32,780 nt of DNA from Desulfobacca sp. (GTDB lineage: Bacteria; Desulfobacterota; Desulfobaccia; Desulfobaccales; Desulfobaccaceae), in NCBI GenBank assembly GCA_020725545.1, contig DYEV01000018.1:1-32780 (forward strand). Direction: 5' to 3'. A model generated the notes under the pieces. The model ran no database searches and was not told where the DNA came from. It was given only the letters and a program-made list of their open reading frames with translations. Numbering within the stretch: position 1 is the first letter of the stretch; the number at the start of each line of letters is the position of its first letter. Made by a program: the position numbers and the translations under genes. Positions 3,205-26,887 of this stretch are shown here, piece after piece.

Positions 3205-4266
3205 ATGGCGGCGATGCGTTCCGATTCTAAACAAGCGGCGGTGGCCTTGAGCGGTGGCCTGGACAGTGCCGTGGCGGCCGTTCTCTTGCTGGAACAGGGT
3301 TGGCGGGTTTCAGGGGTGCATCTGCGGCTGACCGATCAAGCGGCGGCCGTTGACCTGACAGCTTTAGGTCGTTTTTTAGGGATCGAGGTACGTCAGGTTG
3401 ATCTGCGGCAGGAGTTCCGGCGTCTGGTCATCGATTATTTCCGCCACGCCTACAGTAACGGCAAAACTCCAAACCCCTGCGTGCGCTGCAATGAACAGAT
3501 CAAGTTCGGGCACCTGTTGGCGATCGTGCAGTCCTGGGGCTACCCATTTTTGGCCACCGGGCATTATGCCCGGCTTGCTCCCGCCGAGGATGGCGGTTGG
3601 GGGCTGTATCGGGGCGTTGATCGAAGCAAGGAGCAATCCTACTTTCTGCACCGTTTACCTCGCCACACGTTGGCAAACCTCCTGTTTCCCTTGGGAGAAT
3701 GGACCAAAGACCAGGTCCGGGCCAAGGCCGCGGCTTTGGGGCTCCTGCCCTATATCCTTCCCCGGGAAAGTCAGGAGTTGTGTTTTGTGTCAGGGAAATA
3801 TGGAGATTATCTGGCGTCACGGTTGCCGGCCGGGCAGAATCAACCTGGACCCATTGTCAATCGGCAGGGGGTCATTTTGGGCAGGCATCGCGGTTTGCCA
3901 TACTATACCGTGGGCCAGCGCCAGGGTTTGGGGATTGCGGCCGCAGCGCCTTATTATGTCCTGGAATTAATCCCGGAGGCCAATCAGCTTGTGGTAGGCG
4001 CCAAAGAAGACCTGCTGGCTGAGGTGGTCGAGGTGGAGGAGGTCAATTGGCTGACAGCAACGGAGCCCACGGCTTTAAGGGCTGAGGTACGCCTGCGCTA
4101 CCGCCATCCCGGCGTGGGTTGCCTGATCCAGCCCCGTCCTGACGGCCGCGCCTGGATAACCCTGGAGCACCCGCAAGCTGCCGTCACTCCGGGCCAGGCC
4201 GCGGTCTTTTACCAGGGTGCAAGGGTCCTGGGCGGCGGCTGGATTAGACGGGGAGGCAAAGGATGA
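3205..4266 (+). CDS. mnmA: tRNA-specific 2-thiouridylase MnmA
   Basis: Thiolates U34 of Lys, Glu and Gln tRNAs using ATP and a persulfide sulfur. Visible motifs are the PP-loop ALSGGLDSAVAA (near residues 14-25), NPCVRCN with the first catalytic cysteine C95, GHYARL, EQSYFL and SQELCFV with the second catalytic cysteine C193. The C-terminal beta-barrel follows (YYTVGQRQGLG). At 353 residues it is slightly short for the family. An extra cysteine, C92, makes a CxxC at the first active site. No clear Shine-Dalgarno precedes 3205, and the in-frame ATG at 3214 is an alternative start. The stop overlaps the mtaB start (ATGA at 4263-4266), so the two tRNA-modification genes are translationally coupled. 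Confidence 0.93.
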   Translation: MAAMRSDSKQAAVALSGGLDSAVAAVLLLEQGWRVSGVHLRLTDQAAAVDLTALGRFLGIEVRQVDLRQEFRRLVIDYFRHAYSNGKTPNPCVRCNEQIKFGHLLAIVQSWGYPFLATGHYARLAPAEDGGWGLYRGVDRSKEQSYFLHRLPRHTLANLLFPLGEWTKDQVRAKAAALGLLPYILPRESQELCFVSGKYGDYLASRLPAGQNQPGPIVNRQGVILGRHRGLPYYTVGQRQGLGIAAAAPYYVLELIPEANQLVVGAKEDLLAEVVEVEEVNWLTATEPTALRAEVRLRYRHPGVGCLIQPRPDGRAWITLEHPQAAVTPGQAAVFYQGARVLGGGWIRRGGKG

Positions 4267-8206: not shown

Positions 8207-8300
8207 GGAGGGAATTGCCCTCCGGAGCGGTGGTGAGCAAAGCTACCGGCGGCGCTGCCCCCAGACCGATGATAGCACACAAACCAGCAAGGATGGGCGC

Positions 8301-9137
8301 ATGTCAGAACTCGATATTATTCAGGCTATTGAGTTGGCCATCTCCCATGAAATGGAAGCCCGCCGGGCCTATTTGGACTTGAGTGAGCAGGCCGACGACC
8401 CGGAACTGAAACGGCTGCTCAAAGAAATTGCCCAGGAAGAGATGGGCCACGAAGCCTCCCTGCGCAGCCGCCTGCGTCTCTATCAGCAAAAGCATTTGCT
8501 CCGGGATACCATTTCCCGCTATGTCAGCCCCCACGTCTGTGAGGAGATCTTAAAAGACCCGCAGTTGCTGCAATTGGGCGGCAAACGGCAGCGGGTGACG
8601 GTGCTCTTTGCTGATATTTGGGGGTTTACCAGCATGTCGGCGAGACTGGCCCCTGAGATGGTGGTGGAGATGCTCAACCGCTTTTTTACGGCCATGGTGG
8701 ATATTGTCTTTGAGCACGAAGGCACCCTGGACAAGTTCATCGGCGACAATATTATGGCCGTCTTCGGTACGCCCTTGGAGATTGAGCAGCCTGCGCTCCA
8801 AGCGGCCCGCTGCGCCCTGGCCATGCAACGGCGGCTGCGGGAAATGCAGCAGGAGTCCTGTCAGATCGGTCGCGTCGGCATCGGCATCAACACCGGCGAG
8901 GTCATCGCCGGCAACATCGGTTCACCCCGCCACATGGATTTTACGGTCATCGGTGACGCGGTCAACATTGCCGCCCGTTTGGAAAGCCTCACCCGGGAAT
9001 TGAACGCCGACATCTTGGTCGGCCCCGAAACCCAGGCGGAATTAGCCGCCCATTTCCATCTGGAGGCTTGCCAGCCGGTAGTCCTGAAAGGCCGTCGGGA
9101 ACCTTTGCCGGTCTATCGCCTGTTGGGGGAAACATAA
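8301..9137 (+). CDS. Class III adenylate cyclase with an N-terminal rubrerythrin-like half-domain
   Basis: A predicted soluble nucleotide cyclase of 278 residues. Residues 5-62 form two helices resembling one half of a rubrerythrin/ferritin-like diiron fold: E17-M-E-A-R-R-A-Y24 (compare ExQAxxxY) and E47-M-G-H50 (the ExxH ligand pair). A short linker (ISRYVSPHVCEEIL) leads into a class III cyclase domain from about residue 97 to the end. Metal-binding aspartates D105 (FADIWGFT) and D149 (KFIGD), substrate lysine K145, and transition-state N222 and R226 (VNIAARLE) are all present. T215 sits where most adenylate cyclases have Asp, as in bicarbonate-responsive class IIIb enzymes. AAGGA precedes the ATG. 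The product is probably cAMP. That iron, oxygen or peroxide gates it is inference. Confidence 0.88.
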   Translation: MSELDIIQAIELAISHEMEARRAYLDLSEQADDPELKRLLKEIAQEEMGHEASLRSRLRLYQQKHLLRDTISRYVSPHVCEEILKDPQLLQLGGKRQRVTVLFADIWGFTSMSARLAPEMVVEMLNRFFTAMVDIVFEHEGTLDKFIGDNIMAVFGTPLEIEQPALQAARCALAMQRRLREMQQESCQIGRVGIGINTGEVIAGNIGSPRHMDFTVIGDAVNIAARLESLTRELNADILVGPETQAELAAHFHLEACQPVVLKGRREPLPVYRLLGET

Positions 9138-25551: not shown

Positions 25552-26346
25552 TTAACCTTTAGAGCCCAGGCGCAGGCCGCCGTGGATGAAGAAGGTATCC
25601 CCGGCCAGGGCCTCGTTGCGATAGAGTTCGCCGATCAGGGAGGCCACTTCGGCGGGTTCAATAAGGCGGCCGATGGGCACCTGCTCCAGGATTTTCTCCA
25701 GGGCTTTCTGGTTCATCCCCTTGACCATGGGCGTGCCCACATATCCCGGGGCAATAGCCACGCAGCGGATCTGTCCGGCCAAACCCCGCCGAAAGAGTTC
25801 GGCAGTGATCACCTTGGGCATGACGTTCATGGCCGCCTTGGTGGAGGAATAATTGATCTGACCGGCTGTGCCCAACGAACCGGTGGAAGAAAAAAGGCAG
25901 ATGAGTCCCCGACAATTGTGGTTGATCATCCGTTCCAGACATTCCCGGACGGTAAGAAAGACGCCGGTGAGGTTGATATTGATGACGGCCTGAAAGTTCT
26001 CCAAGGACATCTTTTTGGTGACCTTTCCTGTTTCCCGGTCGGGGGCTACCAAAAGACCGTCCCGGATAATGCCGGCCGCGGGAGCCACCAGATGAATCGC
26101 CCCGAAGGTGTCGATGGCCAGATCGGCCAAGCGGGCGCAGGCGGCTTCGCTGGTGGTATCGCCGGCCAAGGTCGCCACCTGACCGCCCCCGGCCCGGAGT
26201 TCGCCGGCCACCTGCTGCAAGCCGCTCTCACTGACATCACTCAATACCACTTTGCCGCCGTGCTGGACCCAATATTTGGCCAGCTCTGCGCCGATACCGC
26301 CAGCGCCGCCGGTAATAACTGCCACTGCATCCTGAATCGTTAACAT
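25552..26346 (-). CDS. phaB: SDR-family 3-oxoacyl/acetoacetyl-CoA reductase (PhaB-like)
   Basis: A short-chain dehydrogenase of 264 residues with TGGAGGIG (12-19), catalytic Ser153/Ser154, Y166 and K170 (YSSTK). D37 at the end of the second strand (VLSDVS) points to NAD(H) rather than NADP(H). Its place downstream of phaC and the phaE-like gene, on the same strand, suggests it reduces acetoacetyl-CoA to (R)-3-hydroxybutyryl-CoA for PHA synthesis. The insertion after the AG motif (IIRDGLLVAPDRETGKVTKK) is longer than in classical PhaB, so a different 3-oxoacyl or hydroxyacyl substrate is possible. The ATG follows GAGGGA closely. Fold and catalytic class are certain; the substrate is inferred from context. 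Confidence 0.8.
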   Translation of the reverse strand: MLTIQDAVAVITGGAGGIGAELAKYWVQHGGKVVLSDVSESGLQQVAGELRAGGGQVATLAGDTTSEAACARLADLAIDTFGAIHLVAPAAGIIRDGLLVAPDRETGKVTKKMSLENFQAVININLTGVFLTVRECLERMINHNCRGLICLFSSTGSLGTAGQINYSSTKAAMNVMPKVITAELFRRGLAGQIRCVAIAPGYVGTPMVKGMNQKALEKILEQVPIGRLIEPAEVASLIGELYRNEALAGDTFFIHGGLRLGSKG

Positions 26347-26401
26347 TCCCTCGGTTATCCTTTCGTTGTAATGCCAAAGCAGATTTAAAAATTATGGAGA
26401 T

Positions 26402-26887
26402 TTAGCCCTCCGGCTTTTCAATCCTTACGGCCTCACCCAGACCTTTGAGGAATTTTTGGAACTGCTCTCCCTGTTTTTCCACCAATTTTTGAAACTCCAA
26501 AGCGGTGGCAGCCAAGCCCAGGCCTTTTTCCTCCAAGAGTTGGCGCAGAACTTGGATGGTTTCCTCCTGTGCCGCCACTTTGTCCTTGAGAGCGTCACAT
26601 TCCTTGACCAAGTCAGCGTATTGTTGTTGCGGCACCAAACCCCAAAGCTGTAGGTAATCATGATAGGCAGCCTGGAGGTTCCCGGTCATATCTTCCCATT
26701 GTTTAGAGCTGTCCGAGTCCGCGGCTTCGGGTTCAGGTGCCGACGCTGAACTGAAAAACCAGGGACAGTATTGGGCTAACAGCGGTATACTTTTTTCCTG
26801 CCAAGCCAAGAGATCTTCCAAATATTTCTGATTCCGGGCGGCCTGTAAAAAGAGTCTGCCCCAGAATTCCAAGAGGCGATAGTCCAT
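26402..26887 (-). CDS. phaE: PhaE/PhaR-type PHA synthase accessory subunit
   Basis: A 161-residue mainly helical protein with a Pro/Glu/Ser-rich linker (residues 50-62). A C-terminal coiled coil follows (residues about 90-155: LVKECDALKDKVAAQEETIQ...). This resembles the second subunit of class III/IV PHA synthases, which activates PhaC, although it is shorter than classical PhaE (about 300-400 residues). Its ATG directly follows the phaC stop with no spacer, and its Shine-Dalgarno (GGAGG) lies in the last phaC codons, so the two are translationally coupled. That supports a stoichiometric partner role. An alternative is a large phasin. Confidence 0.65.
   Translation of the reverse strand: MDYRLLEFWGRLFLQAARNQKYLEDLLAWQEKSIPLLAQYCPWFFSSASAPEPEAADSDSSKQWEDMTGNLQAAYHDYLQLWGLVPQQQYADLVKECDALKDKVAAQEETIQVLRQLLEEKGLGLAATALEFQKLVEKQGEQFQKFLKGLGEAVRIEKPEG

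Follow-up and report, generated by a model that had tools for sequence, protein, structure and literature searches.

The window analyzed here is a stretch of 32,780 nucleotides from a Desulfobacca species (contig DYEV01000018.1), and the gene of interest, as read from the window sequence, is an intact open reading frame that starts with ATG and follows a likely ribosome-binding sequence (Table 1). Pfam assigned Rubrerythrin (PF02915) to residues 10–66 of the encoded protein with an E-value of 2.6e-7 (31.6 bits, cut-off 22.8) and Guanylate_cyc (PF00211) to residues 97–272 with an E-value of 2.2e-30. Together with the conservation of the catalytic residues, these matches agree with the first-pass annotation of the locus, which had described a ferritin-like half-site joined to a complete class III cyclase; the residues it had pointed to, i.e., E17 opening the motif EMEARRAY, E47-x2-H50, and D105, K145, D149, N222 and R226, are all at those positions in the sequence. 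When compared with the other cyclases of the same genome, the fusion protein is ~35–42% identical, and since this likeness begins only at residue 62–63, the first 61 residues constitute a distinctive module.

Table 1. Features of the half-ferritin/cyclase gene (positions in the window) and the histidine kinases carrying the same N-terminal module (positions in their own loci).
Feature	Position	Strand	Basis
Half-ferritin / class III cyclase fusion gene, 278 aa	8301..9137	+	Open reading frame, family matches, orthologs
AGGA, likely ribosome-binding, ~7 nt 5' of ATG	8290..8293	+	Sequence reading
Half-ferritin hairpin, residues 3–61 (helices 3–30 and 34 onward)	8307..8483	+	Pfam, NCBIfam, AF2 (pLDDT 96), best PDB matches EncFtn/EncB/EncC
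E17, predicted metal ligand (= EncFtn E32)	8349..8351	+	Invariant in 28 orthologs, kept in histidine kinase fusions
Y24 (= EncFtn Y39, near metal site)	8370..8372	+	Invariant
E47, predicted metal ligand (= EncFtn E62)	8439..8441	+	Invariant
H50, predicted metal ligand (= EncFtn H65)	8448..8450	+	Invariant
Helix continuation and cyclase transducer region, residues 62–96	8484..8588	+	Common to same-genome cyclase paralogs; AF2 helix; 6fht linker match from residue 64
Class III cyclase catalytic domain, residues 97–276 (D105, K145, D149, T215, N222, R226)	8589..9128	+	PF00211; structure matches 3r5g, 6fht, CyaC; conserved residues
Half-ferritin histidine kinase (G278)	L113:4010-5209		Hairpin-profile search
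Half-ferritin histidine kinase (G075)	L114:6047-7069		Hairpin-profile search
Half-ferritin histidine kinase (G106)	L115:5119-6153		Hairpin-profile search

By sequence and structure prediction the catalytic domain is complete and class IIIb-like, from which we infer adenylate cyclase activity and its substrate. D105, D149 and K145 are conserved in 28/28 orthologs, and N222 and R226 in all 27 readable sequences. T215, also present in 27/27 sequences, occupies what we take, from CyaC, to be the second substrate-specificity position. Threonine at the second specificity position is characteristic of class IIIb adenylate cyclases, certain members of this class being bicarbonate-responsive (PMC3383692). 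Structure comparison of the catalytic domain returned CyaB, CyaC and the phytochrome-linked 6fht with Z-scores of 24–26, as well as 3r5g. Assignment to the Pycsar defence cyclases was rejected: the PADLOC PycC models match the shared cyclase domain only, and the conserved neighbors are not a Pycsar effector.

The AF2 model of the N-terminus is a two-helix hairpin with a mean pLDDT of 96. Its best NCBIfam matches are encapsulated-ferritin families, at sub-threshold scores of 28–32 bits that do not reach the cut-offs of TIGR04535 and NF058679 (125 and 90, respectively). In a profile search of PDB sequences, the hairpin aligned without gaps to the encapsulated ferritin (EncFtn) of Pyrococcus furiosus (5n5e, 2e0z) and, as a weaker match, to that of R. 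rubrum (5da5), whereas rubrerythrin-type chains such as sulerythrin required a 3-residue insertion; the E-to-E spacing is 30 residues in the hairpin and in EncFtn, versus 33 in rubrerythrin. Foldseek returned 5n5e, EncC and EncB among the top matches with a probability of 1.00, the weak E-values being in line with a helical query of 65 residues, and superposition on EncFtn, EncB and EncC gave 0.8–1.4 Å over 55–61 columns for most chains. VIA-align placed 5da5 residues 16–80 on model residues 1–65, with E32, Y39, E62 and H65 falling on E17, Y24, E47 and H50. Because unrelated helical hairpins in the same match list also attain a structural Z of ~9, the identity of the ligands outweighs the fold score, and the E, Y and E-x2-H ligands that define the two-helix half-ferritin of EncFtn are all found in the hairpin. 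In EncFtn, the ligands of two chains hold two irons centrally in an antiparallel four-helix bundle; dimerization and assembly are metal-dependent, the iron site forming only on subunit pairing (PMC5012862).

Judged by sequence and model, the closest match of the hairpin is an EncFtn-type half-ferritin and not, as the first-pass annotation had suggested, one half of a rubrerythrin. The N-terminus does match ferritin-like families, by Pfam above the cut-off and by profile and structure to EncFtn, so the ferritin-like half-site stood, and the rubrerythrin identity was dropped in favor of EncFtn on the ungapped alignment and the spacing. A rubrerythrin is a four-helix bundle with two E/E-x2-H sets per chain; all 28 orthologs have one helix pair. 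None of them has a second pair upstream, which indicates that the domain is truly a half. A truncated four-helix protein or a wrongly chosen start was rejected as well: the orthologs start within a few residues of one another or carry short extensions lacking a helix pair. The second, or entry, metal site of EncFtn (E31, E34, W38) is not strictly retained in the hairpin. A role as encapsulin cargo was ruled out, as the 99.96% complete genome gave no match to encapsulin (PF04454) in a search that recovers the encapsulin of T. maritima. Pfam found no hemerythrin domain in the fusion protein, and the ligands of the hairpin are of the E/E-x2-H kind. Another ferritin-like fusion in the same genome joins a rhodanese to a ferritin-like domain of two helix pairs (L123; G000:C28 near 26323-26754).

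The architecture recognized in the window recurs in other genomes, with full-length orthologs of the fusion in 28 of 29 Desulfobaccales genomes, including the cultured Desulfobacca acetoxidans (DSM 11109), and in none of the 30 other genomes of the phylum sampled in the same search. The exception within the order, G021 (84% complete), has a 25-residue fragment only, reflecting either gene decay or an assembly error. Downstream of this piece of the half-ferritin (L125; G021:C38 near 3442-3516), a sat-like start follows within a few hundred bases. Two N-domain peptide patterns, which would miss diverged relatives, were scanned across 84,980 species genomes and gave 25 loci, nearly all of them known members of the order. 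The exception, a cyclase contig binned in another family, JALOOY010000138 (G183:C294, L112/L037), shares 80% DNA identity over the gene with D. acetoxidans and the window; it is probably misbinned, because the contig is Desulfobacca-like while the genome to which it was assigned is 76% complete with 4% contamination. A plasmid search with residues 1–97 gave no match.

Across the 28 sequences, E17, Y24, E47 and H50, together with E11, E46 and E51, are invariant as amino acids while their codons vary, which argues that the half-site is not a product of chance. Mean pairwise identity is 79% for the hairpin and 66% for the cyclase, with a third-position divergence of 46% in both. In our judgement it is unusual for a putative sensor to be more conserved than its enzyme, and the pattern argues for a strict chemical function. 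Residues 54–61, LRSRLRLY (window positions 8460–8483), are fully invariant in 28/28 cyclase orthologs and missing from the kinase fusions described below; they place three arginines where the helix of the putative sensor passes into the cyclase linker.

Searching the phylum with the hairpin profile, we identified three histidine kinases, from three genera of another family, that carry an N-terminal half-ferritin with the E/Y/E-x2-H residues kept (Table 1) and that Pfam describes as Rubrerythrin + HisKA + HATPase. At the one locus scanned, genes for a SufC-type ABC ATPase, a SufBD core protein, a DUF166 protein and an FMN reductase/LMW phosphatase (LMWPc) fusion lie upstream of the kinase and a purL-like gene lies downstream, with genes matching by sequence at the other two loci. 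Like class III cyclases, histidine kinases function as dimers, and the repeated use of the module on kinases therefore supports its candidacy as a dimer-dependent sensor and would point to an iron or oxidant signal. A tree built on 62 columns does not resolve whether the half-domains of cyclases and kinases share an origin.

The gene in the window is flanked by genes for a CoA-binding protein and a nucleoside phosphorylase. Although the cyclase, the phosphorylase gene and panE are closely spaced, they were not accepted as operon partners, as this order is kept in the nearest relative only. The sat gene of the genome to which the window belongs is on a different contig. In the sister family, sat (ATP sulfurylase) is the next recognized gene on the same strand at 19/19 loci with enough downstream sequence, followed by aprA where contigs extend, and an aprB-like ferredoxin frame lies between the two in one locus examined in detail. 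Two ATP sulfurylases, ~28% identical, occupy the same slot downstream of the cyclase in this family (L016-L034); the sequences suggest an in-place replacement of sat.

The cyclase–sat gaps contain, in 16 of the 19 cases, a TGTGA-N6-TCACA palindrome with at least 9/10 matches, located downstream of a promoter-like TTGACA...TAAT. Near-perfect TGTGAAN4TTCACA palindromes are seen in the gaps of L016, L018-L025, L027 and L029-L034, and no exact copy was found in the window's own genome. In Desulfovibrio, the consensus found at sat and apsAB was later linked to Rex. The same palindrome consensus, upstream of these genes, had been assigned to HcpR (PMC545781). The palindrome in the cyclase–sat gaps could be a Rex, an HcpR or a CRP site; as proof of a cAMP loop it was rejected, since it fits HcpR or a Rex-type regulator equally and the window's genome has no exact copy. 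That genome encodes five cNMP-binding proteins, which are possible readers of cAMP.

We favor, with slightly better than even confidence, the explanation that the protein is a soluble adenylate cyclase with an EncFtn-type half-ferritin as its input, in which metal at the site, or oxidation of the site, alters cAMP output. In the cyclase homodimer the two hairpins would meet, and E17, E47 and H50 of both chains would hold ferrous iron or a comparable metal between them. Loading of the site, or its oxidation by O2 or peroxide, would then change the way helix 2 (residues 48–71) enters the cyclase dimer and, in turn, the cAMP output. Counting against this explanation, no neighbor of clear iron, oxygen or sat relevance is present in the window's own genus.

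The main difficulty of the proposed mechanism is geometric. In the AF2 monomer helix 2 is continuous over residues 34–71, with confidence falling to ~82 at residues 61–70, and residues 64–278 of the fusion protein align with residues 507–724 of 6fht. The two linker helices of 6fht form a coiled coil up to residue 513 (~residue 70 here), and loosening of this coil raises activity (PMC5995499). By a simple helix-geometry estimate, the two copies of residue 70 would be ~65 Å apart if the hairpins paired antiparallel with straight helices, and 10–14 Å apart if they paired parallel. Antiparallel pairing as in EncFtn thus conflicts with a straight helix 2 entering a parallel cyclase dimer, a parallel coil being the usual entry to class III cyclases, and a bend at about residues 58–64 would reconcile the two. 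The first-pass annotation had envisaged dimerization joining two half-domains into a four-helix bundle with a diiron center next to the catalytic core. EncFtn assembles its diiron site from two half-domains in just this way, metal-dependently (PMC5012862), which makes such a site realistic here, but given the ~65 Å estimate for antiparallel pairing a bundle cannot simply sit on top of the catalytic dimer unless helix 2 bends.

In view of this geometric conflict we propose a competition between pairing modes. The most plausible switch would be between a metal-free parallel coiled coil running into the cyclase and an antiparallel, metal-bridged pair of hairpins, in which helix 2 would bend or break after about residue 58–64. 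The competition of the two would constitute the switch, in which metal could either activate or inhibit. The metal might also bridge separate cyclase dimers.

It is possible, although we hold it with less conviction, that the site senses iron availability, with Fe2+ driving the pairing of the hairpins, and not oxygen or peroxide. Such a role would fit the metal-dependent assembly of EncFtn and the SUF Fe-S assembly genes adjoining the kinase fusions; however, EncFtn and rubrerythrin sites readily react with O2 or peroxide, and in an anaerobe an iron-only sensor would answer oxidants anyway. Iron-only sensing is a variant of the main explanation and not a contradiction of it.

The half-ferritin may instead be a structural module for dimerization or oligomerization, with constitutive metal that would hold cyclases together, possibly linking several dimers, and carry no signal, the input coming from elsewhere, e.g., from bicarbonate acting on the class IIIb core. 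The hairpin is conserved beyond what is usual in a sensor, and EncFtn itself uses metal mainly for assembly. Acetate oxidation yields CO2, hence the relevance of CO2 and bicarbonate here. For these acetate-oxidizing organisms (PMC3156406) CO2/bicarbonate would be a sensible signal, and T215 lies at a position where, in sAC-like cyclases, threonine has been linked to regulation by bicarbonate (PMC3383692). Nevertheless, the redox-active iron ligand set is intact down to the tyrosine, more than a site with a purely structural role would require, and half-ferritins are found on histidine kinases too; we consider a purely structural role unlikely.

A hairpin without metal, whether as a degenerate relic or as an ordinary coiled coil, is improbable: many unrelated helical proteins match two-helix hairpins at similar Z, but the family scores are significant, and the four residues E17, Y24, E47 and H50 are both invariant across varying codons and repeated in the kinase fusions. 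We give very little credence to an enzyme (a small ferroxidase or peroxidase) merely fused to the cyclase, for although the ligand set is that of the EncFtn ferroxidase center, mineral cage and encapsulin are both absent, and the protein has no rubredoxin or other electron-donor domain.

Several known systems come close to the proposed metal-dependent cyclase. EncFtn-type proteins (R. rubrum Rru_A0973, P. furiosus 5n5e, M. xanthus EncB/EncC) share the two-helix half-ferritin fold and the E/Y/E-x2-H residues at identical spacing, and some encapsulated ferritin-like proteins are likewise fused to another domain, in their case the encapsulin shell. The fusion protein differs from them in that its genome lacks encapsulin, it has no targeting peptide and a C-terminal cyclase, the entry-site residues are not strictly kept and the NCBIfam scores stay below the cut-offs. 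The hairpin scores above the Pfam cut-off of the rubrerythrin family (PF02915) but has one helix pair in place of two, a shorter E-to-E spacing and no rubredoxin part. Hemerythrin diguanylate cyclases (V. cholerae VC1216, P. gingivalis PG_0686) also carry a non-heme diiron domain on a second-messenger cyclase, there under redox or O2 control, and are a functional analog (PMC10101095); theirs, however, is a five-His, four-helix hemerythrin within one chain and their product is c-di-GMP, in contrast to a two-chain half-site on a cAMP-type cyclase. The class IIIb soluble adenylyl cyclases (CyaC, CyaB, OaPAC, Cya2/PaaC) share the catalytic domain, transducer region and helical linker, but their inputs are GAF, PAS, BLUF, CHASE2 or phytochrome domains.

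In the open-access literature we found no account of an adenylate cyclase carrying a ferritin-like or diiron domain and no experiment on a homolog, in keeping with the first-pass annotation, which knew of no named signaling family with this arrangement. Sensor-fused cyclases are already known; a half-ferritin site completed by enzyme dimerization appears to be new. A broader and tentative reading, which we do not expect to hold in full, is that EncFtn-type half-ferritins are a reusable input for dimeric signaling enzymes, in which dimerization would complete the metal site, iron or an oxidant would flip the two chains from a parallel coil to an antiparallel, metal-bridged bundle or back, and the cyclase form would, in sulfate reducers, couple cAMP to the regulation of sulfate respiration.

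The presence of an ortholog in the cultured type strain Desulfobacca acetoxidans DSM 11109, an organism of biosafety level 1, makes the proposal directly testable. If it is true, the cofactor site is a property of the dimer alone, and metal binding would itself be the event of enzyme assembly, and the half-ferritin on histidine kinases beside SUF genes suggests that the principle is a wider one. It would also add a class of non-heme iron sensors to cAMP signaling in strict anaerobes, in which the sensing of oxygen and iron is poorly understood.
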